Positions 973-50,818 of a stretch of DNA of 64,000 nucleotides are shown here, piece after piece. Under the pieces are notes generated by a model. That model ran no database searches and was not told the origin of the DNA. It worked only from the letters and a program-made list of their open reading frames with translations. The position numbers and the translations under genes are program-made. Positions within the stretch are counted from its first letter, which is position 1, and the number at the start of each line of letters is the position of its first letter. Source of the DNA: Bacillota bacterium (GTDB lineage: Bacteria > Bacillota > Clostridia > Peptostreptococcales > Anaerovoracaceae); NCBI GenBank assembly GCA_021769295.1, contig JAETTD010000001.1, positions 62,001 through 126,000 of the forward strand, in the 5' to 3' direction.

Positions 973-1201
973 TGAATGCCGTAAATTTTGAAAAAATGCT
1001 CAGATGCGGCATTATGGGGTGCATAATGATGACCAAACTGCCGTATTTTTAGAAAAATTCTTTATATACGGCATTTTTTGGCCTCCAACAGCTAAAAAAA
1101 TGCCGCATTCTTGAAAAAATTTCTCGAATGCGGCATTATCGCTACTCAGTACGCTGTTAAACTGCCGTAAATCATAAAATTTTATTGAATTGCGGCATTT
1201 C
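973..1201. repeat. 62-bp-period palindrome array 1 (4 units, TGCCG..CGGCA arms)
   Basis: TGCC at 977, 1039, 1101, 1163 (62-bp steps); each unit spans 35 nt from TGCC to GGCA. Confidence 0.9.
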
Positions 1202-9815: not shown

Positions 9816-9872
9816 GTGTGGCTCAGCAGCGACTTTACGTGCATACAACGAGAGGCCGCCACCTCCCTTTGC

Positions 9873-10101
9873 AAACTGCCGCAACCGGAGATTTTTTTGA
9901 AGTTTGCGGCAGTTTTACCGTCATTGAAGCTCCTAAAATGCCGTAACTGAGTGAATTTTTGACATTTACGGCATTTTATCTGTCATTATGCCTTATAAAC
10001 TGCCGTAAATAAAAGAAATTTTGTAAATTCCGGCAATTTGGACGCTCTCACCGCAATAAAAATGCCGCATTTAAGGATTTTTTTGACTTTTGCGGCAGTC
10101 A
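9873..10101. repeat. 62-bp-period palindrome array 2 (4 units, TGCCG..CGGCA arms)
   Basis: TGCC at 9877, 9939, 10001, 10063; each 35 nt to GGCA; between two terminators of convergent genes. Confidence 0.92.
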
Positions 10102-10123
10102 GGCTCCTTGCCCGTTTACAAGG

Positions 10124-10184: not shown

Positions 10185-13100
10185 TTATTCAAATTTTCTG
10201 TTTCTTCTTACAACTACAACTGTGCCTGCTGCTGCTCCGCCAAATACGACAGCCAGCATAATCCACATGAAGATGTTGGAAGTATCACCTGTCTTGTTAA
10301 CGTCTGCAGGAGTTGTTGTTCCCGGTTTTTCAGGATTTTCCGGATCAACTACAGGTGGATTTTCAGGAGCTTCAACGCCTGCGTAAGCAGTATCGCCGAG
10401 AACTCTTGAGAACAGGAAGTTTGCGATGTATTTGAACTCATCCTGTGGGTGTCCTTTGTGGTCTAAGGAGTTAGCAAATGCTACGATATCCTTGCCGTCA
10501 GCTTTGTATTCGAAAGCTACCACGGAAGTGTTATATACGTCGAAAGCAGCCTGGTCATCATCGCTGAAGATACCTACGCATCCAACCATAGGAGTCTTAC
10601 CTGCGTTTTTAACCAGCGGAGTAGCTCCCTCAGGAATAGCTGAGAAGTAAGCAGTACCGTACTGGTAATTCTGGTCGTCTCCGTCCAGAGCATAGTTAGC
10701 ATTGAGAAGGTTAACTGTAGGATATTCTACATTTACCAATGCGTCAGTGCCGTTAGGTGCGCTCTTCTTGGTAACTCCGTCAAGAATTCCGCTCAATCTT
10801 CCGGAACCGCTGCCCCAGATCATCAGAGGAGTTCCTTCGGTAACTGCCTGTTTTGCAGTATTGTCAACACCTGAGAAGCTTGCGCCTACAATGGCATCAG
10901 CCTTGGTTGCCTTGTCTGTCAAAGTGAATCCCATCTGCTTTAATGCATACAGGTCGAAGCAGTAAGCATTTCCGCCAGGAAGTTCAATGTTACCTGCGGT
11001 TGCAGGAGCGCTTGCGCCTATAATATAAGCTTCCGGAGCCTTAGCGATTACGCTGGCAACGATGCCTGCTCCGTATACGCCTTCAGCGCTCAGTATATAC
11101 TTATCTGCAACGGTTAAGAAGTCTTCATATGAGCAGATGAAGTCGCCCATGTGCTCGCCTTCTGTAATCATAGCTACAGTCTTGCCTGCTCTCAGCAAAT
11201 CGTTAACTGCACATGCAGTATCTTCAGAAGCGTTGGAGATGATAACGTCAGCATCTGTAACGCCGGTAAACTGAGTAGCGAAATCTGCCAGATAAGTCAA
11301 TGTTCCGGCATAGTCATAACCGTCCTTGCAAACCTTATCGATTGCTTTGTATGCTTCAGGTTCTGCAACTGTGATTATGTCAAATCCACGAGCATAAGGA
11401 TGCTGTGAGAATGCTTCGGAATACAGTCCCTTCCAAACGGTTACGAATGTTCCAGGTCCGAAGTTTGCATGCAGCAGGGATCTCTTAGCCTGGTACATTG
11501 AAGCGATAACCGTACCTGCCGGATATTCTACTCCGTCATATGTGAATGCCTTGTCGGCAATCTTGTACTTCATACCGTTTCTTGCAATCCATTTAACTGC
11601 TTCTGCAGCGTCCTGAAGGTTCTTCTGATTTTCTTTATCCATAGGGATGATCAGGCATTCAGGATAGAAGTTGCCGTTTTCGCCTTCGCCGTCGTATACA
11701 GGTCTCATGATGTCAGCCTGTGCGCCTTGCTCGTCGTATTGGCTTACATAGTATTTTGCAACCTTATCATTGGAGTTTTCGTTGTTCAGTCCTCTTTTGA
11801 AGAGTTCTGCCTGACTTGTCAACAAGTCAATCTTGTTTTCCTGGATAAATCTTCCCTGACCGAGCAGTCCGTTAGGAATTACCTGTTCTGCAGCGATGTC
11901 ATCGTATGCAGGCATTTCCCATGTGATACCGCAAGTACCGTAGAATACAGGGAACTGTGAACCGAAGTTGGTTGACAGGTCATCCCAAGGTGCTCCCCAC
12001 TGTACGCCTGTACGGGGATTAGGATCAAGTTCGATATAGTCACGGGCAGGGAGTTCATAGCTGTTGAATTTTTCGTTGTTTGCAACAGCTGCAATACCTA
12101 CCGCCTCACCCAGCTTCAGGAATTTTTCACCTATTAAGTCATATTCGATGTTAGGATTGTGCGGTGCGCCGCATGGTTCTATAAGCATACCTTCAACTCT
12201 TCCGTGAATTTCGGTATAAACCATAGGGTTCCACTTAGTCATGAAGGCCATAGCGTTTATGTCTTCATTCATGGTCTGGTTAGCATAGTCTCTGTTAGGG
12301 TCAAAGCCTACGCCTGTAGCTCTGGTCTGCTGCATGTAACCTTCCATATTCATGGTAGGAACGCATACGAAGAATACATCGTCCAACAGCTCGTCGATAG
12401 TAAATTCATCAACGCCGGTATTGTAGTACTTGTCAAAGTCAACTACGGAAGAATATCCGTAAGTTGCGGATCTATCAGAAGTATCTCCGTTTTCGCCTCT
12501 GAGTCTTCCCAGCTCTGTAGCCCATTCGCCGTAAATTTCAGATAAGCCTGTTCCGAAAACGTTCTTCTTTTCGTCTTCCAGTTTAGCTCTGCCGGCATCG
12601 GTGTAGCTTTCGAGAGTTCTCAGTGAAATTTCATCTTCGTTTACCAGATTCTGAATGGTATTCATGATACCGTTTACTGCTGAGTTTTCATTTGTGTGGC
12701 AGTTGCTGACATAGATAGGAACCTTTAAGTTGTCATACTTTCCTGCCTTGATGTCTTTAAGAACCTGTGTAGGGTTTGTTTCGGACAGTTCAGTGTATTC
12801 CAGCCATTCCTGAACAGCCTTCTTGTCGCTTGCAACGATAACATAAGGGGTATCGTACTGGTCTATGGAAGAATGTCCGATAGAGCCAACTTCAACGTAT
12901 CTGTCGCCCTTATAGGATTTCAGAGCTTCGATTTCATCGAACAGCTCATAAGGTGTACGATATGAATCATAAGGAACTACCTTTGCGTGTACGGAACCTG
13001 CAGCCTTGTCATCTACAGTTGCAGAAAGGTTAAAGTATCCGCACTTATCAAGCCATGAACCGCCGTTGGTATGGTTAATGGAGTAAACTTTCTTTACTTC

Positions 13101-13571
13101 AGCGCTTGCAGTTGCATCGCCGGTATAGTAGAATTCGGTGCCCTGTGTCTTAAAAGTAACAACCAGGTCCTTGCCTTCAGCTTTAAGTTCTTCTACTTTA
13201 ATAACTTCTGTTCCTTCTTTGTCCTTCCATTCGGAGATTGCTCCGCCCTTGTTAGGGAAAGGATATAATGCAGGATCAAGATAATGTCTGTTCTCATCTC
13301 TTGTCAGGGAGAAAGAAATCTTGTTGTCTGCTACAGCCTGCTGGAGGTCTGCATCAGCAAGATTCGTCGGAATGGTTACCTTATGGGTAGCCTCTTCTGT
13401 CAACGAATACTGGAAGTCGATATCGTCATATGCAGGATATTTGCCGGCTAATGAGATACCGGGTGTCGTTGTGTCCATGGTCAGCTCTTCTACCGAAGCA
13501 AAAGCTGCCATCGGCATTATCAGCGAAAGGATCAATGCCGTCACAACCAGTTTAACTAATCTTTTTTTCAT
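10185..13571 (-). CDS. secreted, putatively cell-wall anchored M14-family zinc carboxypeptidase
   Basis: Signal peptide MKKRLVKLVVTALILSLIMPMAAFA; EIHGRVEGMLIEPCG; C-terminal NKTGDTS + TM + RRNRKFE tail. Confidence 0.75.
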   Translation of the reverse strand: MKKRLVKLVVTALILSLIMPMAAFASVEELTMDTTTPGISLAGKYPAYDDIDFQYSLTEEATHKVTIPTNLADADLQQAVADNKISFSLTRDENRHYLDPALYPFPNKGGAISEWKDKEGTEVIKVEELKAEGKDLVVTFKTQGTEFYYTGDATASAEVKKVYSINHTNGGSWLDKCGYFNLSATVDDKAAGSVHAKVVPYDSYRTPYELFDEIEALKSYKGDRYVEVGSIGHSSIDQYDTPYVIVASDKKAVQEWLEYTELSETNPTQVLKDIKAGKYDNLKVPIYVSNCHTNENSAVNGIMNTIQNLVNEDEISLRTLESYTDAGRAKLEDEKKNVFGTGLSEIYGEWATELGRLRGENGDTSDRSATYGYSSVVDFDKYYNTGVDEFTIDELLDDVFFVCVPTMNMEGYMQQTRATGVGFDPNRDYANQTMNEDINAMAFMTKWNPMVYTEIHGRVEGMLIEPCGAPHNPNIEYDLIGEKFLKLGEAVGIAAVANNEKFNSYELPARDYIELDPNPRTGVQWGAPWDDLSTNFGSQFPVFYGTCGITWEMPAYDDIAAEQVIPNGLLGQGRFIQENKIDLLTSQAELFKRGLNNENSNDKVAKYYVSQYDEQGAQADIMRPVYDGEGENGNFYPECLIIPMDKENQKNLQDAAEAVKWIARNGMKYKIADKAFTYDGVEYPAGTVIASMYQAKRSLLHANFGPGTFVTVWKGLYSEAFSQHPYARGFDIITVAEPEAYKAIDKVCKDGYDYAGTLTYLADFATQFTGVTDADVIISNASEDTACAVNDLLRAGKTVAMITEGEHMGDFICSYEDFLTVADKYILSAEGVYGAGIVASVIAKAPEAYIIGASAPATAGNIELPGGNAYCFDLYALKQMGFTLTDKATKADAIVGASFSGVDNTAKQAVTEGTPLMIWGSGSGRLSGILDGVTKKSAPNGTDALVNVEYPTVNLLNANYALDGDDQNYQYGTAYFSAIPEGATPLVKNAGKTPMVGCVGIFSDDDQAAFDVYNTSVVAFEYKADGKDIVAFANSLDHKGHPQDEFKYIANFLFSRVLGDTAYAGVEAPENPPVVDPENPEKPGTTTPADVNKTGDTSNIFMWIMLAVVFGGAAAGTVVVVRRNRKFE

Positions 13572-16072: not shown

Positions 16073-16282
16073 TTCTATCTCCTTTATTCACAATGAATTG
16101 ATCAACTTTTGTTATTATAACACTAATATAAAAGATGTTCAAGTAGCCCGGCATACGGCATAATGTATACTTGATAAATTATTGCATGATTGCTGCCGCC
16201 CGAAAGTCTCTTTGGCCGCCTCAGATAGCGTAACGTCAACGAGCCTTGACAGCATCGCCGGTCGCTGTTCCTATGGACTGCC

Positions 16283-16511
16283 GGACTGCCGTAAAATCTG
16301 AATATTCTTTTAAATGCGGCATTTCTGCCGGTCAACAGACGGCCGGATTGCCGCAAATTTTTAAAATTCTTCCATTTACGGCATTTTTACCGCCTAATAG
16401 CCATAAAAACTGCCGCAAACCTCATAGAATTCATAAAATGCGGCAGTATTGACCCTTTGAAAGCCTTCAAACTGCCGCAAATGGCATAAAATTTATAAAA
16501 TACGGCAGTCT
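16283..16511. repeat. 62-bp-period palindrome array 3 (4 units, TGCCG..CGGCA arms)
   Basis: TGCC at 16287, 16349, 16411, 16473; each 35 nt to GGCA; lies 25 bp past the dnaJ stop. Confidence 0.92.
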
Positions 16512-16535
16512 GAACCTCGCGGACCGCCGTACTCG

Positions 16536-17681
16536 TTACTTAAACAGTTCTTTCAATTTCTCTGCAAATCCGCCCTTCTTCTGATAGCAGTCTTCTGTAA
16601 CAACCTTGCCCATTTCGGTGATTGCCTTCTTCTGCTTGTTGTTAAGCTTTGTAGGGACTTCCAGATTCACCTTTACATAAAGATCGCCCTTGGACTCACG
16701 CCTCAGATGCTTGATACCTTTGTCTTTCAGGCGGAACACGGTTCCCGGCTGAGTTCCCGCAGGAATCTTATAGGAAACCTTGCCGTCCAGCGTAGGAACT
16801 ACAAGCTCTGCGCCAAGAGCCGCCTGGTCAAAGCTTATAGGCATTTCAAGATACAAATCGTCGCCCTGGCGTTTAAACAGCTTGTGAGGCTTTACGGATA
16901 TAACTATATACAAATCTCCCGTAGGACCGCCGTTTACGCCCGGCTCGCCCTGTCCTCTGATAGGGATAACGCTTTCGTTGTCAACGCCGGCAGGTATATC
17001 TATAGAAATTTTGACGTTCTTTCTGACTTTGCCGGTTCCCTTGCAGTCAGGGCAAGGCTCTTCTATTATCTTGCCGCTGCCGCCGCACTGGTCGCAGGTG
17101 GTAACGCTCTGGAACTGTCCGAAAGGAGTTCTCTGAGTCTGGCTCACCTGACCGCTGCCGCCGCACTTAGGACATGTTTTCTTTGAAGTCCCCGGTTTTG
17201 TTCCCTCGCCCTTGCAGGTCTTACACTGAACATATTTGCTGATTTCCAGTTCTTTCTTGGTTCCGAAAGCCGCCTCCTCAAAGGTTATGGTTATAGCCTT
17301 CTGGAGGTCTCTGCCTTTCTTTGGCTGGTTGGCTCTCTGCTGCTGTCTGCCTCCGCCGAAGCCGCCTCCGAACATGCCTCCGAACATATCGAAGATATCT
17401 TCAAAGCCGCCGAAACCGCCGCTAAAGCCTCCTCCTCCAAAACCGGCATTAGGGTCTACGCCCGCATGACCAAATCTATCGTACTTGCTCTTCTTGTCGG
17501 GGTCTGAAAGAACGCTGTAAGCCTCATTCACTTCTTTAAATTTTTCTTCTGCGGTCTTGTCTCCGGGATTCCTGTCGGGATGATATTTCATAGCCATTTT
17601 TCTGAAAGCTTTTTTAATCTCATCCTCACTTGCACCCTTTTTCAAGCCAAGCACTTCATAATAATCACGTTTTTCTGCCAT
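16536..17681 (-). CDS. dnaJ: chaperone DnaJ
   Basis: J-domain with HPD, G/F region, four CxxCxGxG zinc repeats. Confidence 0.97.
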
Positions 17682-29052: not shown

Positions 29053-29195
29053 TATCTTTGCTCCTGTCAAAAATGTTCTTAGCAATGTAAGTTTCTTCAA
29101 TATGTAAGTTTCCCCAAATTGGCTTTTTATTATGCGTACGGCCGGCCGTGTCTCGCTGATAAATTCAAATCGGACAAAGGGCGTTAACACCCTCG

Positions 29196-29385
29196 GCTGC
29201 ACGTTTTTGTGATTTTGTGCAATAATGTTAGCAAAAATGCAAAACGTCGCAGCAGAGCTACAACGTTTCTGTAGTTTCACGCAATTATGTTAAGGTTTTC
29301 TGAAATCGTGTTGCCGGAGCTACAACATTCCTGCAATTTCATGCAATTATGTTATGGATTTTGCAGATTGTGGTTATCCGGTCGA
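29196..29385. repeat. palindrome array, AACAT..ATGTT family, left copy (3 units)
   Basis: ATGTTA at 29225, 29287, 29349 (62-bp steps); gctac starts 29196/29257/29319. Confidence 0.88.
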
Positions 29386-29845
29386 AGTCAGCTTCTATTA
29401 GAGAACACAACAGATAATCCCTTTACAAATAACTGAATATAGTTCTTTGAAGCACCTGCTACTGACCGAGAGAAAAATCGGTTAAACGGCGGGTGCTTTT
29501 ACTTTTTCAAAAAATCAGAATACGAGGTCTAAATTACACTTCCCTTACGGGCTATTGGGTGAGAGGTCAAATCCTTTCGCCCTTTTTTGTTGCGCTTCTT
29601 GAAAATTGAATAGCAGCCGCCAGAGGGATACCTGCCGCAGCGGACAGCAGAGCGATGATATGAGCCTGCCCGCTGCTTAATCCGTGCATAGCACCGGCAG
29701 AGAAAACGCCGCTTAAAGGAAGCGTGGAACTGTATGGGAGGGCTGTGCTTACATATCCCTGATTCACTTGACAGGGATAAATCTATTTTCAAGGAGGAAA
29801 CGCCTATGTGCAACAACAGGAAACCAAAGCGGAAGGAGGGATTGT

Positions 29846-30898
29846 ATGCAGAAGTTGCAAACGGTCAACGCCGACACGCTCCTTTATGAGCCGCTTGAGA
29901 AGCCGTCCTTTGTGGTGGACGGTCTGATACCCACAGGCTTGACCCTGTTATGCGGCTCGCAGAAAATCGGCAAGAGCTGGCTCATGCTCAAGCTCTGCCT
30001 ATGCGTGTCACAGGGCTTGCCCCTATGGGATATGCCGACATTAGAGAGCGATGTGCTGTACCTCTGCCTTGAGGACACCTTCTGCCGCATACAGGACAGG
30101 CTCTTTAAGCTGACAGACGAGGCAAGCGGGCGGCTTCATTTTGCCGTGGCAAGCTGCAAGCTGCCAGACGGTCTTATCGTGCAGCTTGAGGACTATCTGA
30201 AGGAGTACCCAGACAGCAGGCTCATTGTCATTGACACCTTGCAGAAGGTACGCACCGCTTCTAAGGACAACGCCTACGCCAACGATTATGGGGACATCTC
30301 CCTTATCAAAGACTTTGCTGACAGGCATTCCCTGTCGGTAGTGGTCGTACACCATATCCGCAAGCAGAATGACAGTGATGTGTTCAACAAAGTATCTGGA
30401 ACGACAGGCTTGACGGGAAGTGCGGACGCTACCTTTGTACTGGAAAAAGAAAGCAGGGCTTCCGATACCGCAAGGCTCTATGTGACGGGCAGGGACACGC
30501 CCTATCAGGAGTTTACGCTCCGCTTCCATGATTGCAGTTGGGAGCTTGTGGAGCGCAGGACGCAGGAACAGGCAGCGGCGGCGGAAATCCCGCCCGTCCT
30601 CTTTCGGCTTGTGGAATTTATGCAGGACAAAACCGAGTGGTCGGGTACGGCAACAGAGCTTGCCGCCGCAATGGGGGAAACCAGAGCCGCACCCAACGCC
30701 CTCACCAAGTGGATGAATGAGTACCGCATGGGTTTTCTGGCGGAAAACCATATCCGCTATGATTACCACCGAAAAAACAGCGGCAGGCTGATTCTGCTTG
30801 CAAGGCAGGACAAGGGCGGCGGTGACGATGGTGACGGTAGTGACGGTGTTTTTGGGATACCCCCTGCCGTTGTCACTGTCACCGATAGCGTGTGCTGA
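29846..30898 (+). CDS. RepA-like AAA ATPase (RecA-fold helicase)
   Basis: Walker A GSQKIGKSWLMLKL; LIVIDTLQKVR; VVVHHIRKQ; GTTGLTGSADATFVLEK. Confidence 0.8.
   Translation: MQKLQTVNADTLLYEPLEKPSFVVDGLIPTGLTLLCGSQKIGKSWLMLKLCLCVSQGLPLWDMPTLESDVLYLCLEDTFCRIQDRLFKLTDEASGRLHFAVASCKLPDGLIVQLEDYLKEYPDSRLIVIDTLQKVRTASKDNAYANDYGDISLIKDFADRHSLSVVVVHHIRKQNDSDVFNKVSGTTGLTGSADATFVLEKESRASDTARLYVTGRDTPYQEFTLRFHDCSWELVERRTQEQAAAAEIPPVLFRLVEFMQDKTEWSGTATELAAAMGETRAAPNALTKWMNEYRMGFLAENHIRYDYHRKNSGRLILLARQDKGGGDDGDGSDGVFGIPPAVVTVTDSVC
30821..30864. repeat. left arm of 44-bp imperfect inverted repeat containing 9-bp iteron-like GGTGACGRT x3
   Basis: GGTGACGATGGTGACGGTAGTGACGGTGTTTTTGGGATACCCCC; partner at 31237-31280. 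Confidence 0.85.
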
Positions 30899-31108
30899 AA
30901 CGGCAGTCTTGCCCTGCGGGTGACAGCTATGTGTGTGGTGACGGTGATTTCGGGACGCCCCGCCGCTGCCACCCTTCGGGAGAACACCCCGTAAACGCAA
31001 AATGCAGGCGTGGGGATTACTCGCCCTCTCTCGGCTCGTAAACCCACCCCTGCGTCAGAAAAATCGTGCCGATTTTTCCGACAGCGTTTACAGGGTGTAA
31101 CACACTAC

Positions 31109-31124
31109 ACCTTGCAAGCAAGGT
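31109..31124. other. candidate oriT/nic-region palindrome upstream of mob
   Basis: ACCTTGC-AA-GCAAGGT perfect inverted repeat in the noncoding gap before the relaxase. Confidence 0.4.
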
Positions 31125-31236
31125 CGTGTGCCAGCCGTTCCCTCTGGACTCCCTTATGGCAGGGCTTACGCCCTGCTTTATCCTCCGCCTTGCTTCGGAT
31201 AAAAGGACGGCGGCGTGACGGTGGCGGCTCCCGTGA

Positions 31237-31280
31237 GGGGGTATCCCAAAACCACCGTCACTACCGTCACCACCGTCACG
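31237..31280. repeat. right arm of 44-bp imperfect inverted repeat
   Basis: GGGGGTATCCCAAAACCACCGTCACTACCGTCACCACCGTCACG, near reverse complement of 30821-30864. Confidence 0.85.
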
Positions 31281-31324
31281 CAAGGGAGGAATACCCGCCG
31301 AAAAAAGAAAGGAGAATGTCGCCT

Positions 31325-32290
31325 ATGCCTTATGCAATCCTGCGCTTTAAAAAGCGCAAGGCAGGCTCTGTCGCTTCCTGCGAACGCCACAACGAGCGGA
31401 AGAAAGAAGCCTACAAGAGCAACCCAGATATAGATATGGAACGCTCTAAAAACAATTACCACCTTGTTAATCCACCCCGCTACACCTACAAGAAAGAGAT
31501 TAACCGAAAGGTTGCGGAAGCGGGCTGCAAGGTGCGCCGTGACAGCGTGATGATGGTGGAAACGCTCATCACCGCTTCGCCAGAATTTATGAACAGTTTA
31601 CCACCCGCCGAGCAGAAAGCGTATTTTACAGAGGCTTTAGACTTTATTGCGGAGCGTGTCGGGAAGCAGAATATCCTCTCCGCCGTGGTGCATATGGACG
31701 AGAAAACGCCCCATATGCACCTCTGCTTTGTGCCGATTACGCCAGATAACAAGTTGTCGGCGAAAGCCATTTTAGGCAACCAGAAATCCTTATCCGAGTG
31801 GCAGACCGCCTACCATGAGCGTATATCGGCAAGGTGGAATGAGCTTGAAAGAGGACAGTCCTCTATGATTACAAAGCGGAAGCATATTCCCACTTGGCTC
31901 TTTAAGACGGCTTCCAGACTGGATAAGCAGTATGATGAAATCGTGTCTGCCCTCTCCGATATTAACGCCTTTAACGCAGGGAAAAAGCGTGACAAGGCTC
32001 TGGAACTGATTGCGGCATGGCTGCCCGAAGTGGAGAAATTCTCTAAGGAAATCGGGAAACAGAGCGCCTATATCGAGAGCCTGAAGGCACAAATCGGGCA
32101 GGAAGCCGACTATGCCGAGCGTATGCGTGATGGGAAATATGCGGAGGAACTGAAGGTGCGGGAAGCAAACAAAAAGATATTTGAATTGCAGAGAACCAAC
32201 GAGCAGATGGGACGGCTGCTGAAAAAGATACCGCCCGAAGTGTTGGAGGAAATCCAAAAACCGAACAGAAACCAGACCAGAGAAAGGTAG
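31325..32290 (+). CDS. MobV-type relaxase (Pre/Mob family)
   Basis: MPYAILRFKKRKAGSVASCERHNERKKEAYKSNPDID; VVHMDEKTPHMHLCFVPI (HxDExxPHxH). Confidence 0.88.
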   Translation: MPYAILRFKKRKAGSVASCERHNERKKEAYKSNPDIDMERSKNNYHLVNPPRYTYKKEINRKVAEAGCKVRRDSVMMVETLITASPEFMNSLPPAEQKAYFTEALDFIAERVGKQNILSAVVHMDEKTPHMHLCFVPITPDNKLSAKAILGNQKSLSEWQTAYHERISARWNELERGQSSMITKRKHIPTWLFKTASRLDKQYDEIVSALSDINAFNAGKKRDKALELIAAWLPEVEKFSKEIGKQSAYIESLKAQIGQEADYAERMRDGKYAEELKVREANKKIFELQRTNEQMGRLLKKIPPEVLEEIQKPNRNQTRER

Positions 32291-32297
32291 GAATTGA

Positions 32298-33152
32298 ATG
32301 AAGAAACAGGATTTTACCGTGTTGAAGATTAAGGATTTACACCCTTTCCCCGACAACCCGTTCCGTGTCGTGGAGGACGAACTGCTGATGGAAATGTCGG
32401 AAAGCATTAAGGAATTTGGAATTGTCACGCCGATTATCGCCCGCCCGAAGGAGGACGGGGACGGTTACGAGGTCATTGCAGGACAGCGGCGTGTGAGGGC
32501 TTCACAGCTTGCAGGGATAGATACCGTCCCTGCTTTTGTTTTGCCCTTAGACCGTGACAGGGCGATTATTACCCTTGTGGACAGCAACATGCAGCGTGAA
32601 AATATCCTGCCGAGCGAGCGTACCTTTGCCTACAAGATGAAATTAGAAGCGATGAAGCGGCAGGGCTTCCGCACGGATTTAACTTCTGCCCAAGTTGGGG
32701 AGAAGTTGACTTCGGTGGAGCAGCTTGCGAAGCAGAGCGCAAACAGCCGCACCCAGATACAGCGTTTTATCCGACTGACCGAACTGATACCGCCGATTTT
32801 GCAGATGGTGGACGAGGGGAAAATCGCCCTCACGCCTGCGGTGGAGTTATCGTTTTTGAAGAAGGACGAGCAGGAAAACCTGTTCACCACAATGGAGAGC
32901 GAGGAAGCAACGCCCTCTTTATCGCAGGCGCAGCGTATGAAGCAGCTAAGCCAGACGGGGCGGCTTGACATGGATACCATCTTTGCGGTTATGACCGAGG
33001 AAAAGGCAAACCAGAAAGAAACGCTGAAAATCAAGACCGACAAGCTAAGGAAATACTTCCCGAAAGGCACAACGCCGAAGCAGATGGAGGACTTCATTAT
33101 CCGCCTGTTGGAGCGTGAATTGCAGCGGAAACGAAGCCGTGACAGCCGATAA
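32298..33152 (+). CDS. ParB/RepB/Spo0J-family partition protein
   Basis: LHPFPDNPFRVVEDELLMEMSESIKEFGIVTPIIARP...GYEVIAGQRRVRASQLAG. Confidence 0.88.
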   Translation: MKKQDFTVLKIKDLHPFPDNPFRVVEDELLMEMSESIKEFGIVTPIIARPKEDGDGYEVIAGQRRVRASQLAGIDTVPAFVLPLDRDRAIITLVDSNMQRENILPSERTFAYKMKLEAMKRQGFRTDLTSAQVGEKLTSVEQLAKQSANSRTQIQRFIRLTELIPPILQMVDEGKIALTPAVELSFLKKDEQENLFTTMESEEATPSLSQAQRMKQLSQTGRLDMDTIFAVMTEEKANQKETLKIKTDKLRKYFPKGTTPKQMEDFIIRLLERELQRKRSRDSR

Positions 33153-33197
33153 TGTCCTTTTTTCGGATAGTAAACACAGAAAGTTGAGGTTTAGAAA

Positions 33198-33422
33198 ATG
33201 AAAGATATTCAATATGAGATTGTAAAGGAAATCGCTGTTTTATCCAAAAGCGACAGCGGCTACACGAAGGAAATCAACCTGATTTCTTGGAACGGGAAAG
33301 AGCCGAAGTACGATATACGCAGCTTCTCCCCCGACCGTGAGAAGTGCGGCAAGGGCATTACGCTGACCGAAGCGGAAGCAAAATCGCTTCTGGAAGCATT
33401 AAGAAAACAACTGAATGACTGA
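33198..33422 (+). CDS. YdbC/PC4-like ssDNA-binding family protein
   Basis: KEINLISWNGKEPKYDIRSFSPDREKCGKGITLTEAEAKSLLEAL. Confidence 0.75.
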   Translation: MKDIQYEIVKEIAVLSKSDSGYTKEINLISWNGKEPKYDIRSFSPDREKCGKGITLTEAEAKSLLEALRKQLND

Positions 33423-33488
33423 TATGATTTGCGGATTAGGGGCGTTTTCGGACGCCCTTTTCCCATTTTGAAGGGAGGGTATCTGCCG

Positions 33489-33680
33489 ATGGCAAGAACG
33501 GCTACACGCCCGAAGATTACCGTGCAGGCGGTCTATTCTGGTGAAAAGGATATGCAGGAGATGTTTGTTTCCCTGCTTGTCAATGCGGTGCGGAAAGGGA
33601 AATCCTCTGTCCGCACCTTTGAGATTGTGAAAGATACAGACTACAATTTACCCATAACCGATGAAAAGGAGGCGAGCTGA
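33489..33680 (+). CDS. small conserved mobile-element protein
   Basis: MARTATRPKITVQAVYSGEKDMQEMFVSLLVNAVRKGKSSVRTFEI; directly upstream of recombinase. Confidence 0.6.
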   Translation: MARTATRPKITVQAVYSGEKDMQEMFVSLLVNAVRKGKSSVRTFEIVKDTDYNLPITDEKEAS

Positions 33681-35373
33681 ATGAGCATTTTAAGGACAGC
33701 TCTCTACTGCCGTTTATCCAAAGACGACGATATGGCACAGGGCGACAGCGAGAGCATTAAGACACAGAAAGCAATGCTGACACAGTACGCAAAGGAACAC
33801 GGCTTTATGGTGGTGGAAATCTATGTGGACGATGGTTGGAGCGGCTTAAATTTCGACAGACCAGATTTTAACCGTATGCTCGATGACATCGAAGCGGGCA
33901 GGATTGATGTGGTCATCACAAAGGATTTATCCCGTCTGGGGCGTGACCATCTGAAGGTCGGGCACTTCACGGAGATATATTTCCCGATGAAAAATGTGCG
34001 GTACATCGCCGTCAATGACTGCGTGGACACCGCCAACCGAAACAACGATATAGCGGCTCTGAAAAATGTGATGAACGAATTTTACTCAAGGGACAATTCA
34101 AGGAAAATCCGTTCGTCCATACGGGCAAGGGCAAAGGCGGGGCTTTACCGCTGTTCCTATGCCCCGTTCGGCTATCGGAAAACGCCCGATAACCATAACA
34201 GACTGATAATTGACGAGGAAACAGCCCCGATTGTGAAGCGGATTTTTGCGCTTGCGGGCGCAGGAATGGGGGGCGCACAAAATCGCAAAGCAGCTTCGGG
34301 AGGAACAGGCAGCCGCCCCCTCTTGGTGGCAGCACACCCGTGGGGAGAAGGACTATTCCCAACGCTTTTCCAATCCAGAGAACAAATATGAGTGGTCGCA
34401 TACCGTTATCCGCAATATTATCAAAAACCCCGTCTATCTCGGTCACACTATCATGTGCAAGAAGGAGATTATCTTCAAGGTCGGGAAATACAGGGATATA
34501 CCAGAGGAAGAACAGATACGGGTGGACAACACCCACGAGCCGCTTGTCACGCAGGAGGATTTTGACAATGCAAACGCTAAGATTTTAAGCCGCAGGCGGG
34601 ATACAACCGATAATTTTGTATCGCCCTTTTCAGGGCTTGTGAAGTGCGGCACTTGCGGGAAAGCGTTGGGCTTGCGGTATTGGGGGAAAGACAGACATCA
34701 CATTTTTGTCTGTACCACTTATGCCCGCAATACAAAATCCTGTACCGACCACCGCATTTTCTACGATGATTTATACAATGCGGTGCTTGCCGATATTCAG
34801 TACCATGCCCGAATTGCCTATGAGGACAGGGAGAAGGCGGTGGCTCTGGCGGTCAGAATGAATGAGAAAGCGGACGGAAGCCGTGGGAAATCCAACGAAG
34901 CGAAGCTGAAACAGGCGAGGAAACGCTACGATGAAGTGACAAGGCTGTTTGACAGGCTCTATGAGGATTCCCTTTCGGGGCGTATCTCCAATGACAACTT
35001 CTCCCGCCTGATAGACAAATACCAGACGGAGCAGGAGCAGCTTTTGGGGCAGATACAGGCGATAGAGAACGCCTTGCAGGAGGTAAGGGACAACCAGCAG
35101 AACGCCGTGAAATGGGCGGACTTGATGGCACAGTATGTGGGAATACAGGAACTGACCGCCGAAAACCTCAACCTTCTCATTGAGCGGATTGAAGTGTTTG
35201 ACCGAACGGAAACAGACGGGGAAACCGAGCAGGTAATCCGTATCTGTTACCGCTTCGGCGGTTACATAGGGGAACACCGCTTTAAGGCAAAGGTTTTAAG
35301 GAATACGGGCGGTTGGGAGCAACGCCGCAAAAAAGAAAGGAAAGACAATGGAAAAGTATCATTTGTATCTTGA
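33681..35373 (+). pseudogene. large serine recombinase (TnpX/TndX-like), split in two frames by a +1 shift
   Basis: ORF 33681-34391 has the N-terminal resolvase domain (TALYCRLSKDD...GDSESIKTQK, KDLSRLGRDHLKVG); ORF 34246-35373 continues with the recombinase/zinc-ribbon part. Frame changes at G6 run 34268-34273 (GAGMG|AHKIAKQLREEQ). Confidence 0.82.
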
Positions 35374-35518
35374 CGAAGCGGAACGGCGGCTGATCATCCT
35401 CTGCCTAAATGAGCTTAGAAACAGGCTCATAGCCGAGGGCAGATATACCGACTGCGTAGACGAACTGCTGATAAAGGCGGCAGGGGCAAAGAAAGTGAAA
35501 TTAAAAATACGGAGGTAA
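35348..35518 (+). CDS. small conserved element protein (56 aa)
   Basis: MEKYHLYLDEAERRLIILCLNELRNRLIAEGRYTDCVDELLIKAAGAKKVKLKIRR; below ORF-track cutoff. Confidence 0.65.
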   Translation: MEKYHLYLDEAERRLIILCLNELRNRLIAEGRYTDCVDELLIKAAGAKKVKLKIRR

Positions 35519-35524
35519 CGGACA

Positions 35525-35899
35525 ATGGCAAAATCAATCTTTGAGGAAATGGGCGGCAGATACGAAAGACAGGGCGATTACATTCTCCCCTGCCTTACCG
35601 TACCGCCCGAAGAAGAAAAGCCAATAGGCGTTTTCGGACAGCGGCACTTGCGGTATCTGCGGGAGTACCGCAAAGTTACATACACCAATCTTCTAACAAG
35701 CGGCAGGCTCAACACCTACCTTGCCGACATCGATAAACAGGCACAGGAACGCTTTGAAAGGCTCATAGAGGGCATGAAGCAGGCACAGGGTATCACGGAA
35801 CAGCTAAAGGCAGAAAACGCGTTAGAATGGACAGGAAGAATGAATAACATAAGGGCTTGTGCGATGGAGATTGTGAATGAAGAAATCATTTTCGCATAG
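35525..35899 (+). CDS. TnpV-family transposon protein
   Basis: FEEMGGRYERQGDYILPCL...FGQRHLRYLREYRKVTYTNLLTSGRLNTYLADIDKQAQERFE. Confidence 0.8.
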   Translation: MAKSIFEEMGGRYERQGDYILPCLTVPPEEEKPIGVFGQRHLRYLREYRKVTYTNLLTSGRLNTYLADIDKQAQERFERLIEGMKQAQGITEQLKAENALEWTGRMNNIRACAMEIVNEEIIFA

Positions 35900-36033
35900 C
35901 AGACAAGCGGCAGGGAGAAATCTCTGCCGCTTTTGGGAAATGTTAGAAAAGATAACGGAATGGTCTTCTCAAAAACGGTCAATGGATTTATAATATCTCT
36001 GTATTAACCGATACGGTTAACGAGGAGGACGCT

Positions 36034-36648
36034 ATGAATGATAAGTTTTTCAATCTACCGTTAGAGAAGCAACAGCGGATTATCAACGCTGCATATAAAG
36101 TGTTTTCACAGAGCAGCTACAAGAAAGCACCTATGTCAGAGATTGCCGATGAGAGCGGCATATCCAAAGCGTTGCTGTTCCATTACTTTACAAATAAAAA
36201 AGAGCTGTATTTGTATCTATGGATAAATGCTATAGAAATGACAAGAAAGGCAGTCCGAGAGTATAAGACCTTGGAAACAAATGATTTTTTTGAAATGCTG
36301 AAAAGAAGCCTGCTTTCAAAATGCTCCCTTATGCGGGATTATCCGCATATGTACGCCTTTTCATTGCGGGCGTATTATGAAACAGCTTCCGAAATCAAAA
36401 GTGCCATTCAAGAGAATTTTTCTGATGTCAGTAAGACAAGTGAAATGATTGTATTTGAAAAAATGGATACATCAAGACTTCGGAAAGATATTGACCTTAA
36501 AACAATGTATGATGAGATTTTCTATGCTATTGACGGATATATGCTAAAAAAATACCGTTCTAATCGTATCATTCCAGATGAAATCGAACTGGAGATTATT
36601 TCCTTAATTGACTTTTGGAAGAAGGTTTACACACAGAAGGAGGCGTGA
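36034..36648 (+). CDS. TetR/AcrR-family regulator
   Basis: RIINAAYKVFSQSSYKKAPMSEIADESGISKALLFHYFTNKKELYLYL. Confidence 0.88.
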   Translation: MNDKFFNLPLEKQQRIINAAYKVFSQSSYKKAPMSEIADESGISKALLFHYFTNKKELYLYLWINAIEMTRKAVREYKTLETNDFFEMLKRSLLSKCSLMRDYPHMYAFSLRAYYETASEIKSAIQENFSDVSKTSEMIVFEKMDTSRLRKDIDLKTMYDEIFYAIDGYMLKKYRSNRIIPDEIELEIISLIDFWKKVYTQKEA

Positions 36649-36652
36649 AAAA

Positions 36653-37465
36653 ATGCAGCATAAGACGATTGCGGCACAAGGCGGAATTGTACATTATTGG
36701 ATTGACAGAAAAGAAAACACCGCTGACTGTATTGTTTTCACACATGGCGTAACGGCAGACCATACAATGTTTGAAAAGCAGGTATCCTATTTTTCTGATA
36801 ACTACACAATAATTCTTTGGGATGTTCCCATGCACGGTCTGTCAAGACCTTATCATGGATTTTCTTATCATGATACGGCTGAAATATTACATAGCATTTT
36901 GCAAAAAGAAAATATTAAAAAAGTATTTTTGATTGGAATGTCGATGGGAGGTTATCCAAGCCAACATTTTGCGAGTATTTATCCCGATATGGTAAAAGGA
37001 TTTATAGCTTTGGACACAACGCCGTTAGGCTGCGGCTATTACTCAAAATCAGACTTATGGTGGCTCAGGCAGGTTGCTCCAATGGCAAAATGTTTTCCCA
37101 CAAATATTCTAAGGATAAGTATGGCTCGGTCAGTGTCAAAGCGTAAATACTCGTATCAAAAGATGATGGCTATGCTAAAATCAGTTTCAAAGGCAGAAAT
37201 CATTGAGCAAATGCGAGTGGCATATGAGTATTTCCCAATGGAAAACAAAGATGTTGATTTTCGGTTTCCTGTGTTGATACTTGTAGGTGAAAAGGATAGT
37301 ACAGGTAAGGTGAAATCGTATTGCAGGGAATGGGCAAAGCAAACTGGGTATCCCCTCCACTTCATAAAAGGAGCAAAGCATTTTTCAAATGGGGATAATC
37401 CAGAGCAGGTAAACAAAGAAATAGAGGATTTTATCCACACGGTTGTTCAGCAAGAAAGGAAATGA
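36653..37465 (+). CDS. alpha/beta hydrolase 1
   Basis: VFTHGVTADHTMF; nucleophile elbow GMSMGG; C-terminal GAKHFSN. Confidence 0.85.
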   Translation: MQHKTIAAQGGIVHYWIDRKENTADCIVFTHGVTADHTMFEKQVSYFSDNYTIILWDVPMHGLSRPYHGFSYHDTAEILHSILQKENIKKVFLIGMSMGGYPSQHFASIYPDMVKGFIALDTTPLGCGYYSKSDLWWLRQVAPMAKCFPTNILRISMARSVSKRKYSYQKMMAMLKSVSKAEIIEQMRVAYEYFPMENKDVDFRFPVLILVGEKDSTGKVKSYCREWAKQTGYPLHFIKGAKHFSNGDNPEQVNKEIEDFIHTVVQQERK

Positions 37466-38217
37466 CTATGCTATATTTTGATGAATATGGAAACAAAGAT
37501 AATCCAACTATCCTATTGTTGCATGTTGCAGGTGCGCTTGACACATTTTGCAATCAATACTGCTTTTCCGAGCAATACCATTTAATCGTACCCCATTTGT
37601 ACGGAGCAGGAAAATCAGCAGATAAAGTTTACGACCCCGATAGGATGAAGCGGGAACTTTGGGAACTGATTGACAGCTTGCACAAGGAGAAAATCGGCGT
37701 AATCGGACATTCCCTCGGCGGGCAGCTTGCAATCATGCTTGTTTGTGAGCGACCAAGCCAATTTCGTTTTACAGTCTTTTTAAGTGCATGGGTAAATCCA
37801 AATCCAAAAACTGTTAAAATGTATTGCTCACTTGCGGGAATGGCAGCGAAAATGCTCCACATAAAATGGCTTGTCTGTTTTCAAGGGAAGTATTGGAACT
37901 ATACCAAAAAGCAGGCGGAGTATATGGCAGATTATTCAAGGCTTATTACTCCGCAGATTTACAGGTCATTTTTTGCAAACACATTAGATTTACGGAATGT
38001 CCCTATATATTTTTCTGTCAAAGTCCCGATGTTGGCAATATGTGGCAGCGGCGAAGTAAAGGATATGAAGCTATCTCTTGATATGCTCGGTAAAAATTCC
38101 TGTTGCAAAACGATGATACTTCCAAGAGCAGGTCATGATTTCCCTATGAGGAATAGAGGTCAGCTTAGTACGGTGCTAAATGATTTCTTCTTAGGTAAGG
38201 TAAAAGAGAATGAATAA
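37462..38217 (+). CDS. alpha/beta hydrolase 2
   Basis: LLLHVAGALDTF; GHSLGGQLA; PRAGHDFPM; overlaps hydrolase 1 stop. Confidence 0.85.
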   Translation: MTMLYFDEYGNKDNPTILLLHVAGALDTFCNQYCFSEQYHLIVPHLYGAGKSADKVYDPDRMKRELWELIDSLHKEKIGVIGHSLGGQLAIMLVCERPSQFRFTVFLSAWVNPNPKTVKMYCSLAGMAAKMLHIKWLVCFQGKYWNYTKKQAEYMADYSRLITPQIYRSFFANTLDLRNVPIYFSVKVPMLAICGSGEVKDMKLSLDMLGKNSCCKTMILPRAGHDFPMRNRGQLSTVLNDFFLGKVKENE

Positions 38218-38398
38218 AACAGAGTGGATACGCTGCCCTATCTGCGGAAACAAAACCCGTAACAGAATTAGAGAAGATACTGTTTTGAAAAACTTTCCCC
38301 TCTACTGCCCGAAGTGCAAGCAGGAAAATTTGATTGAAGCAAAAGATTTACAAGTAAAAGTCATCAAAGAGCCAGACGCACAGACGCAGAGCCGATGA
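38210..38398 (+). CDS. cysteine-rich KTR domain protein
   Basis: WIRCPICGNKTRNRIREDTVLKNFPLYCPKCKQENLIEA. Confidence 0.8.
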   Translation: MNKTEWIRCPICGNKTRNRIREDTVLKNFPLYCPKCKQENLIEAKDLQVKVIKEPDAQTQSR

Positions 38399-38738
38399 AC
38401 TTGTGAGAAATCACAGTTTGTCGGCTCTGCTCTTTATACCCATAGGCAGGACAAGCCCACCGAATAAAAAAACGGAGTTTTGGTGGGCTATATTGTCACG
38501 CCCGAATAAGCGGCAGACACACCTCTCCAGACCCCGTTTTGAGTTTGGAGGGGTGTTTTTATGTGTTGGTCTGAAATGACCGCATCGCTGCTCATACGAA
38601 GCAGCAGCTTTCTACATAACCTCATGGCTTAGTGAGGACAATCAATTAAAAAAATTATGGCTTCTGCGTGGGGGCTTTCTACCCCAAATGTAGAAGTCAA
38701 ATCTCTACATAAAAGAAGTATTATTGCTATGAACCGCA

Positions 38739-38768
38739 AAGGTATGACAACCTCTGCGGTTTTTCTTT
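38739..38768 (+). terminator. attenuator/terminator-like hairpin upstream of sigma-like gene
   Basis: aACCGCA-aaggtatgacaacctc-TGCGGTTTTTCTTTT. Confidence 0.6.
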
Positions 38769-38880
38769 TGTCGTTTTTTATCAGAACACGCCGCAGGGCT
38801 GTTTCTGATGTGCGCTGCCGTTCTCCGCCTTTCAATCTGGATTTCAACGATTTTCAAAATTCAGATTGGAGGAAATTAAA

Positions 38881-39309
38881 ATGGCATATAACCACGGACG
38901 GGAAGAACGCAAATGGCGTATCTGGAAAGAAGCCGAGGAAGCAGTTTTACGCAAGTGCGGCGTTGACGAAAACACCATTGAGAAAATCCGTACTTATGAC
39001 CGAGCAGAGTTTAATTCCAACAGGCGGTTTTACCGTTGGACAAGTGATTTCGGCGAATACCTTGAGGGGATGGCGGAGGTCGAGCCATTTGTAGATGTAA
39101 AGACCGTTGCGGATTTACTGGACGAGATTGAAAACGAAAATCTGCATCGGGCATTACTTATGGTGGACAAGCGTACCCTTCAAATCGTCCTGCTGAAAAT
39201 GCAGGGCTATTCCATAAAGGAGATTGCCCCCATCGTCCATTTGACAACAGGGGCGATTTACGCAAGGTTAGAACACCTTCGGAAAAAGCTGCGGCAATTC
39301 AAGAAGTAA
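38881..39309 (+). CDS. sigma-70-like HTH protein of mobile elements
   Basis: Region-4-like LQIVLLKMQGYSIKEIAPIVHLTTGAIYARLEHLRKKLRQFKK. Confidence 0.65.
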   Translation: MAYNHGREERKWRIWKEAEEAVLRKCGVDENTIEKIRTYDRAEFNSNRRFYRWTSDFGEYLEGMAEVEPFVDVKTVADLLDEIENENLHRALLMVDKRTLQIVLLKMQGYSIKEIAPIVHLTTGAIYARLEHLRKKLRQFKK

Positions 39310-39392
39310 ATCTAAAACCACACTTTCCTATGGGCTATTGGGTGAGAGGTCAAAAACCTCTCGCCCAATTTTTATAGCAGGAGGAAAGACAG

Positions 39393-39866
39393 TTGACTTT
39401 CTTAGACAAAGCCTACACGCTCCGAGAGGAAAGCGTTCAAAGCATTACCCATTATTACATCAGCTTTACGGACAGCACAGGAGAATTTCAGGATTTAGAA
39501 GTATCGGAAACATTGTATATTGAGTTTCGACAGTTGGAACGGAAAAACCGCAACTTACAGCAATCCGACCAAAGGCATAAAGAGCATAACGAGGTCTATG
39601 AGGAAACGCTGAACAGGCGGGCGGTATTCAAGCCGAAAGGCGTTGAAGAACTTATCATGGAAGCGGAACTCTCCGAGCTATTGCATAAGACGATAGACAG
39701 CCTGCCAGAAATCCAACGGCGGCGTTTCCTGCTCTATTATGAGTACGATTATAACTATCACCAAATCGGGGCAATGGAACATTGTACTGCTTCTTCGGTG
39801 GGTAAATCTATTTCTATAGCAAAAGAAAAGGTCAAGGCGCAGATGAAGAAATATCTCTGCGCTTGA
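39393..39866 (+). CDS. sigma-70-like protein of mobile elements
   Basis: TIDSLPEIQRRRFLLYYEYDYNYHQIGAMEHCTASSVGKSISIAKEKVKAQMKKYL; TTG start. Confidence 0.7.
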   Translation: MTFLDKAYTLREESVQSITHYYISFTDSTGEFQDLEVSETLYIEFRQLERKNRNLQQSDQRHKEHNEVYEETLNRRAVFKPKGVEELIMEAELSELLHKTIDSLPEIQRRRFLLYYEYDYNYHQIGAMEHCTASSVGKSISIAKEKVKAQMKKYLCA

Positions 39867-39971
39867 CCGCTAATGAATATTGCCCTTGTATCTTCGGGTA
39901 TGAGGGCGTTTTTCTTATATGTTCTCTAATGGAATTTCACAGAGGGCAAATCACCTGAGGAGAGGTTGTGC

Positions 39972-40093
39972 GGTATACATATTTTAGGTTTTTGTATACT
40001 TTGTATACGGTTTTGGCTCATATGTATACCCGAGGTATACCTTTTCCGAATTTTCGTATACTTTGTATACCGGTTTGCCGGTTTTTGTATACC
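39972..40093. repeat. 62-bp-period GTATAC palindrome array (2 units)
   Basis: GTATAC at 39973, 39994, 40003, 40024 and again at 40035, 40056, 40065, 40087 (shifts 62, 62, 62, 63). Confidence 0.88.
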
Positions 40094-40107
40094 GCCGGCA
40101 GCTCCCC

Positions 40108-40298
40108 AGCAACACGTTTTTATGGTTTCACGCAATAACGTTAAGGTTTTCCGAAATCGTGTTGCCGGAGCTACAACATTCCTGCAATTTCACGCAATTA
40201 TGTTAAGGTTTTCCGAAACGGTGGTGCCGACGCTACAATGCTTCTGTGAATTCATGCAATTATGTTATGGATTTTGCAGATTGTGGTTATCCGGTCGA
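40108..40298. repeat. palindrome array, AACAT..ATGTT family, right copy (3 units)
   Basis: ACGTTA/ATGTTA at 40138, 40200, 40262 (62-bp steps); last 48 bp identical to left copy. Confidence 0.88.
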
Positions 40299-40568
40299 GG
40301 GTCGAGCAACTCGGGGTCAAACCGGCCGAGGTCAACTTCCAAGCCAATCGCCGATCGAGCCAGCCGAGCCGGCCCTGCGGCCGGCCCGGTGCAGCGGCTC
40401 GCCAGGGCATACGCAGCCCATAAATCAAAAAGAGCGCCCTGAAGCGCTCATTTGCAGCTTCAAGGCACTCTTATATAAACTTTTAAATAACAGCCGAGGC
40501 GCCGATATTATTATTTATAAAACAACTGTCTTTTCTGTAACCTCGCCAAAATACCCTCTTTTTAAAGG

Positions 40569-49654: not shown

Positions 49655-49696
49655 TATTTGCCTTTCGAGGGGCGTGACCGGAAACAAACTGCCGCC

Positions 49697-49925
49697 CTGC
49701 TGCCGCAAATCTTTGATTTTGTTTTAAATGCGGCATTTTGCGAGCTATTCTGAGGGTCGGACTGCCGCAAATTCCGAAATTTATTTTGATTGCGGCATTT
49801 TTAGGGTGTCCGGACGGGCAAAACTGCCGTAAACACAAAAAAATTCTTTAAATGCGGCATTTTCGCCGGTCGATAAAGGGCAAAACTGCTGTAAATGCCC
49901 CAATTTAATATGATTGCGGCATTCT
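49697..49925. repeat. 62-bp-period palindrome array 4 (4 units, TGCCG..CGGCA arms)
   Basis: TGCC at 49701, 49763, 49825 and TGCT at 49887; each 35 nt to GGCA. Confidence 0.92.
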
Positions 49926-49999
49926 GCCTCTACAGCGCCGCAACGCCGAACTACTTGCAGCTGTCTACGTTATTTTCTTTTAAATATTTCCGCAGCGGC

Positions 50000-50818
50000 T
50001 CATACTTGCTCATTCTCAAACACCTCCAAATCGGCAGCAGCCAATATGTTTTCATCGCAGCTTTCAAGAACATCATCGCTCCTTGCCATTACATAAAAGA
50101 AAATGCTGCATTCTGCTTCTTCAAAATACCTGGCGTAGATTCTTCCCCTCATTTGCACAGGCGCAAAATTTTCCTCTGTATCGTAATTAGGCGAACCGTA
50201 TTGAATATAGTTTCTCAGTTTTTCACATCTCTCATGAAGAACCCCGTTTACAGTCATCTCCGCATCAAGGCAGACCCAGTCGTCATAACCTGCAAGGCTG
50301 ACTCCCTTGGTAACGCCGTCAACCTCCCAAGAAAACACCTCATCCTTCTTCGGCATTCCCAAATCGCCTAACACCAATCTGGTAAAATCGTACCTCGGAA
50401 CCCGGGAAATCTTATCCAAATCAACATTTCCCTTTTCATCTATGCCGTATCTTTCGTTCACCGCATATGCGCCGTAAAAAGAATTGTAATATTCGCAAGT
50501 ATCATCGTATATCCGGCTGCATCCTCTCTTTACATCAAATTCCGGGAAATTATATAAAATGGTCAGGCGTATGTCCTTGTCTCCCGTAAATGCCCTGAAT
50601 CCTTCGTCTGCATTAAATGTCATAACAAACGGGTACCAGCCCTCATCCGTTCCCAGCTCGATTCCTATTCCCTTTTCCGCCAAAAGGCTTTCTCTTTCAT
50701 TCGTGAAGCTGTATATCTTCATCACTGCCAGGCTCTTGGCATATGCGGCAAGCGGCGATGTCAGAAACAGCGCAAGAATCAATGTAAGAAGCCCGATTGC
50801 AATCCACTTCTTTTTCAT
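50000..50818 (-). CDS. exported protein of unknown function
   Basis: Signal peptide/TM MKKKWIAIGLLTLILALFLTSPLAAYA; no recognised domain. Confidence 0.6.
   Translation of the reverse strand: MKKKWIAIGLLTLILALFLTSPLAAYAKSLAVMKIYSFTNERESLLAEKGIGIELGTDEGWYPFVMTFNADEGFRAFTGDKDIRLTILYNFPEFDVKRGCSRIYDDTCEYYNSFYGAYAVNERYGIDEKGNVDLDKISRVPRYDFTRLVLGDLGMPKKDEVFSWEVDGVTKGVSLAGYDDWVCLDAEMTVNGVLHERCEKLRNYIQYGSPNYDTEENFAPVQMRGRIYARYFEEAECSIFFYVMARSDDVLESCDENILAAADLEVFENEQV

Follow-up and report, generated by a model that had tools for sequence, protein, structure and literature searches.

In the genome of the gut bacterium analysed here, there are about a hundred or more short, non-coding arrays in which palindromes repeat every 62 bp, a distance of six DNA helix turns. 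Their features suggest mobile or architectural elements that bind a protein, and not chance repeats. The reading that we prefer, with a probability of roughly 0.55, is that they are dispersed and species-specific elements, mobile or once mobile, whose helically phased palindromes are bound by an oligomeric protein. In such a system, the six-turn spacing would place successive dyads on one face of the helix (four per TGCCG array and mostly three per AACAT array), and an oligomeric DNA-binding protein, which may be architectural or may be the mobilising enzyme itself, would assemble cooperatively on the array. In case of the TGCCG family, this protein could exploit a segment of about 220 bp that a model predicts to be pre-curved, and mobilisation would be achieved by an enzyme that acts on terminal inverted repeats.

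Arrays with a 62-bp period in the window and in the genome

The window, i.e. the whole stretch of 64,000 nucleotides that was analysed, corresponds to C31:62001-126000 of an assembly of 2.26 Mb (61 contigs, 97% complete). When lags from 20 to 199 were compared across it, 100-bp stretches with at least 55 matches occurred at lags 62 and 124 only. The periodic stretches and the arrays are the following:

953-1213, 9852-10122, 16249-16544, 29188-29397, 39947-40304 and 49678-49948: stretches with lag-62 periodicity by autocorrelation
977-1197, plus strand: TGCCG array, four 35-bp dyads at 977, 1039, 1101 and 1163
9877-10097, minus strand: TGCCG array, dyads at 9877, 9939, 10001 and 10063; between convergent genes, with a break of synteny with congener G004 nearby
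16287-16507, plus strand: TGCCG array, dyads at 16287, 16349, 16411 and 16473; just past the dnaJ 3' end
29195-29385, plus strand: AACAT array, units from 29195, 29257 and 29319, with the same tail as the right copy (GGTTATCCGG)
39971-40095, plus strand: GTATAC block, with two units of 62 bp that keep register with the AACAT array to their right
40108-40304, plus strand: AACAT array, units 40108-40169, 40170-40231 and 40232-40293, then the recurrent tail GGTTATCCGG
49701-49921, plus strand: TGCCG array, dyads at 49701, 49763, 49825 and 49887; flanked by the convergent PEPCK gene and a gene that ends at 50000

An earlier, sequence-only reading had described the two AACAT arrays, and the positions it gave for ACGTTA or ATGTTA in the right array (40138, 40200, 40262) and for ATGTTA in the left one (29225, 29287, 29349, the same 62-bp pitch) are all exact. 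The unit that it quoted is exact in the middle copy and inexact in the other two, and the palindrome that it named AACAT..ATGTT belongs to a real family, but the clean dyad in the genome-wide consensus is GTGAATTCAC. At lag 62, 55 of 70 bases match in the right array, compared with a mean of 30 and a maximum of 34 when 300 dinucleotide shuffles were scanned over all lags, and 51 of 70 match in the left array. The periodicity is genome-wide and not confined to the window: in a sample of 448 kb, which comprised the window, C5, C6 and part of C48 and was picked blind to the array positions within, lag 62 accounts for 3469 positions, lag 124 for 1355, and every other lag for at most 168. Coding repeats are ruled out, because 62 is not a multiple of three.

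The TGCCG family follows the pattern TGCCGYAA…TTRCGGCA, and 236 exact 35-bp dyads (TGCCGYA-N21-TRCGGCA) occur in the genome, whereas the reversed pattern, used as control, gives 0 matches in the same genome. Of the sampled dyads, 89 measure 35 bp, with 0-4 cases for any other length between 25 and 45 bp. Four units are present in 20 of 25 sampled arrays, three in 4 and five in 1, and a pitch of exactly 62 bp applies to 67 of 72 cases (counts that allow 1-bp slips); scaled from these 25 arrays, we infer about 125 TGCCG arrays genome-wide. The profile of 94 units reads AAAnTGCCGYAAA…AAAWTTT…AATTRCGGCAnTTT, and the half-site centres alternate at 30 and 32 bp, about three helical turns, so that the sites are helically phased as in an Lrp-like wrapping array. 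One TGCCG array (L060:117-362) has a 124-bp higher-order repeat, i.e. steps of two-unit expansion.

The AACAT family has the genome-wide consensus GCTACAACGTTTCTGTGAATTCACGCAATTATGTTAAGG..., and profile iteration gave 87 placements that represent 74 distinct units, as some loci overlap. Its units share a conserved 30-bp core centred on GTGAATTCAC, and arrays usually contain three of them, with a maximum of nine; the nine-unit array (L009, C11:136-690) again has a 124-bp higher-order repeat that indicates expansion by two-unit steps. The GTATAC sites of the window block lie at 39973, 39994, 40003, 40024, 40035, 40056, 40065 and 40087, also with 30/32-bp alternation. Blocks of this family usually have two units that continue in register into the AACAT family, and the composite recurs elsewhere in the genome. 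The families adjoin and mix also in other combinations, as a whole or partial AACAT unit precedes a TGCCG array at three loci (L131, L124, L127).

Constraint, DNA shape and the kinship of the families

Arms and spacers were compared in young TGCCG copies, 30 of which were gathered by BLAST with the arms not being a selection criterion; 26 of them are of equal length, at 82-95% pairwise identity. Non-consensus cells make up 0.67% in the arms versus 8.4% in the spacers (P=8e-8), which means that the arms are about 12-fold less variable. In the G/C columns, only 5 singletons were observed versus 24.6 expected (P=2e-6), and individual copies therefore seem to remain under part of the arm constraint once they are inserted. 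Arm conservation could also result in part from selection for mobility and not for host function. Indels inside the array were found in 2 of the 30 copies, and 2 more copies have an indel just before the array; the 26 copies without length change have accumulated 366 substitutions. Because of this scarcity of indels and of the near-constant spacing in the sampled arrays, the TGCCG pitch itself looks constrained.

The pitch also coincides with an optimum in the predicted DNA shape. We calculated a curvature index as end-to-end over contour length, and the resulting figures are predictions, because they come from a single dinucleotide wedge model. The index is 0.48 for 18 four-unit TGCCG arrays, whereas dinucleotide shuffles and other long intergenic stretches both reach 0.88, and only 0.56% of the windows outside arrays fall below 0.65. 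When the pitch was shifted in silico, the index was lowest at 62, with 63 near to it and 73 low again, while curvature was lost at 57 and 67, and the A/T content of the unit is periodic chiefly at 62/6 = 10.3 bp. TGCCG arrays are thus predicted to be strongly curved, with an optimum at their natural pitch. AACAT arrays have indices of 0.79-0.92 and no marked curvature, which rules out a curvature shared by every family. The sequence-only reading had proposed that spacing, and not arm sequence, is the common constraint. This is partly supported: it agrees with the TGCCG pitch, which looks constrained and lies at the predicted curvature optimum, but as the AACAT arrays are uncurved in the model, the pitch of the three families cannot in every case be put down to curvature; it is the six-turn spacing that the families have in common, and not the curvature.

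The families TGCCG, AACAT and GTATAC all have the 62-bp period, just as had been stated from the letters. When their arms were clustered by sequence with rotation-aligned profiles, TGCCG had no likeness beyond chance to the other two (P=0.21 and 0.82), and the similarity between AACAT and GTATAC was weak (P=0.026). A common ancestry is therefore not supported for TGCCG. Since the signal is genome-wide and the TGCCG family has no detectable kinship to the others, neither of the two outcomes that the sequence-only reading had set against itself was observed, i.e. a signal confined to the window or one ancestral sequence that diverged into all three families.

It is conceivable, though unlikely, that the arrays act at the RNA level, as transcribed hairpins at gene 3' ends that serve as terminators or stabilise mRNAs. 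Two arrays folded as RNA gave z values of -3.2 and -6.0, and the preference for 3' ends and convergent sites described below would suit such a role. However, arrays fold well because palindromes must, and in the two folded arrays the pairing is between units and does not generate four equal hairpins. The varying arm position 6/30 is paired in 46 of 94 units versus 40.3 expected (z=1.4), i.e. there is no covariation, and the dyad interior is unpaired, so compensatory base changes as in structured RNAs are not seen; some excess pairing at 0/36, just outside the arms (z 4.2), and at 8/28, inside (z 2.4), can stem from shared subfamily ancestry. No terminator was called inside two scanned arrays, Rfam gave no match on the window, and an exact helical pitch would be unnecessary for RNA. 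On balance, the lack of covariation and the unpaired interior argue for a recognition of the dyads as double-stranded DNA.

Mobility, placement and distribution

At least 40 copies match a young TGCCG element, mostly over a 237-bp core whose two boundaries are those of the array. In the sample, three copies are complete and have inverted TGTCGCACAGCCGA ends 360-389 bp apart, and the young element is thus a non-coding unit of about 360-390 bp with inverted-repeat ends, which is MITE-like for this young subfamily only. No target-site duplication was evident when the flanks of the complete copies were read by eye. Hairpins of the form GGCTGT-CGC-ACAGCC can arise at both ends of the young element (L103-L132 flanks), often next to runs of T or of A, in the manner of outward-facing terminators.

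With a simple ORF call, nearly all of the sampled arrays fall between genes. They favour gene 3' ends and convergent intergenic sites (convergent gene pairs: 9 of 23 versus 45 of 405, P=3e-4), and divergent gene pairs are rare as sites. The array at 49701-49921 is placed after the terminator-like hairpin of the PEPCK gene, and congeners with the conserved PEPCK neighbour have no array between the two genes. Judged by PEPCK (88% aa), the closest named record is the goat-rectum Bacillota MAG RGIG3148, which appears to be congener G001, since the DNA downstream is identical in both. Near 9.85 and 16.25 kb, the arrays coincide with breaks of synteny with congener G004, and arrays may, judging from this single case, be recombination points.

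The window has further features. The segment 9650-16536, which is bounded by two TGCCG arrays, is located elsewhere in congener G004; an ORF of 1128 aa at 10185-13571 on the minus strand has no Pfam match at E 0.001. Between both AACAT arrays lies an integrated element (29397-39934) with inverted TATTAGAGAACA / TGTTCTCTAAT ends, and with genes for AAA_25, a Mob_Pre relaxase, ParB-like and TetR proteins, two alpha/beta-hydrolases and sigma-70 region 4. At 33681-35373, a large serine recombinase extends over two overlapping frames, one with the resolvase domain and one with the recombinase and zinc-ribbon domains, and is probably frameshifted.

As far as sequence searches reach, the TGCCG and AACAT arrays are species-specific and absent from the relatives searched. 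In 80 relatives, 75 had no TGCCG dyad and 5 had one each, and the AACAT core has 25 exact matches in this genome and 0 in 199 other genomes of the family. Lag 62 is absent from the top lags of four congeners (284 kb of stretches), and a scan of 0.72 Mb of congener and related loci, those 284 kb included, gave one weak match. The two-unit TGCCG pattern was found in 0 of 85,462 species and 0 viral contigs, plasmids searched with the TGCCG array gave no match, and neither did phages searched with the GTATAC-AACAT block.

Much of this would also be expected if the arrays were debris of a non-autonomous transposon with internal tandem repeats, a MITE or satellite in neutral decay, with 62 bp as the size of an ancestral duplication. 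Inverted-repeat ends, truncated copies, a burst limited to one species and the 124-bp higher-order repeats, which reveal tandem duplication, fit this explanation, to which we give perhaps one chance in four. Neutral decay does not readily account for arms and pitch that are strongly kept while spacers vary, even in singleton changes, nor for a value of 62 that is common to three families, of which TGCCG has no detectable kinship to the others.

An expansion of matching transposase or DNA-binding genes, which the sequence-only reading had suggested to look for, was not found. The Y1 transposase domain of RAYTs (Y1_Tnp, PF01797) has 0 matches in this 97% complete genome, while five control genomes were positive, and neither Lrp/AsnC proteins nor tyrosine recombinases (PF00589) are expanded relative to congeners. 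There is one Lrp homologue, and two congeners in which TGCCG dyads are missing have it as well. A comparison of the sampled proteins, which had no positive control, reported no pair of paralogues above 50% identity and hence no transposase present in several copies among them; in the ORFs read beside the two largest AACAT arrays, neither a DNA-binding nor a transposase candidate was recognised. RAYT-driven REPIN or BIME elements as in gammaproteobacteria, which are likewise extragenic inverted repeats with hundreds of copies and regular spacing (PMC2817692, PMC3116915), are thus very improbable, given that Y1_Tnp was not found, units are diverged within the array and the unit number is nearly fixed.

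Relation to known repeat and protein-binding systems

The preferred reading of mobile, protein-bound arrays can be extended to a chromosome-organising system, in which a dedicated oligomeric protein would wrap the pre-curved four-dyad arrays of about 220 bp at gene 3' ends chromosome-wide. Such a bacterial counterpart of nucleosomes positioned by sequence would have been spread by transposition and then kept by selection, and paralogues with other specificities would recognise further arm families, again with a six-turn pitch. We regard this extension as speculative and rather improbable.

Architectural protein binding has also been suspected for BIMEs, as E. coli BIME-1 is associated with IHF and BIME-2 with gyrase (PMC2817692). 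Like these, our arrays are extragenic, have inverted half-sites at regular spacing and exceed 100 copies, but they differ by the lack of a detectable RAYT, by mostly four-unit 62-bp arrays with unrelated spacers, by a predicted curvature that is tuned to the pitch, and by several unrelated arm families with one pitch. For gut Clostridia, a search of the literature gave no account of a REP system. REPINs are single doublets whose movement is ascribed to a RAYT, and where they form ordered clusters, the tandem copies hardly differ from each other (PMC3116915). The replicating unit of inverted palindromes with conserved arms is similar, but here mostly four dyads form an array, not a doublet, spacers and units are diverged, and Y1_Tnp was not found. 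With MITEs, the young TGCCG copies share the length of about 360-390 bp, the non-coding nature and the terminal inverted repeat TGTCGCACAGCCGA, whereas many copies keep the array alone, it is the array that is conserved and not the ends, no target-site duplication is evident, and searches of the families PF01797 and PF00589 yielded no parent transposase. CRISPR arrays resemble the system in a pitch of roughly 62 bp and in dyad repeats, but here the repeats are diverged within arrays that are many, short and near-constant in unit number.

Lrp/AsnC proteins bind sites at two- or three-turn spacing and wrap the DNA round an oligomer (PMC2995911). By analogy, sites on one helix face and TGCCG half-sites with 30/32-bp alternation could be used in a similar way, although the single Lrp homologue is shared with the two congeners that have no TGCCG dyads. 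We read the arrays as a species-specific, BIME/MITE-like repeat system, in which the conserved property is the position of the dyads on one helix face. The system is a clear example of a bacterial interspersed repeat in which spacing and DNA shape, beyond sequence alone, appear to be conserved, and it bears on whether extragenic palindrome arrays persist as protein-wrapped architectural sites or as mobile DNA.
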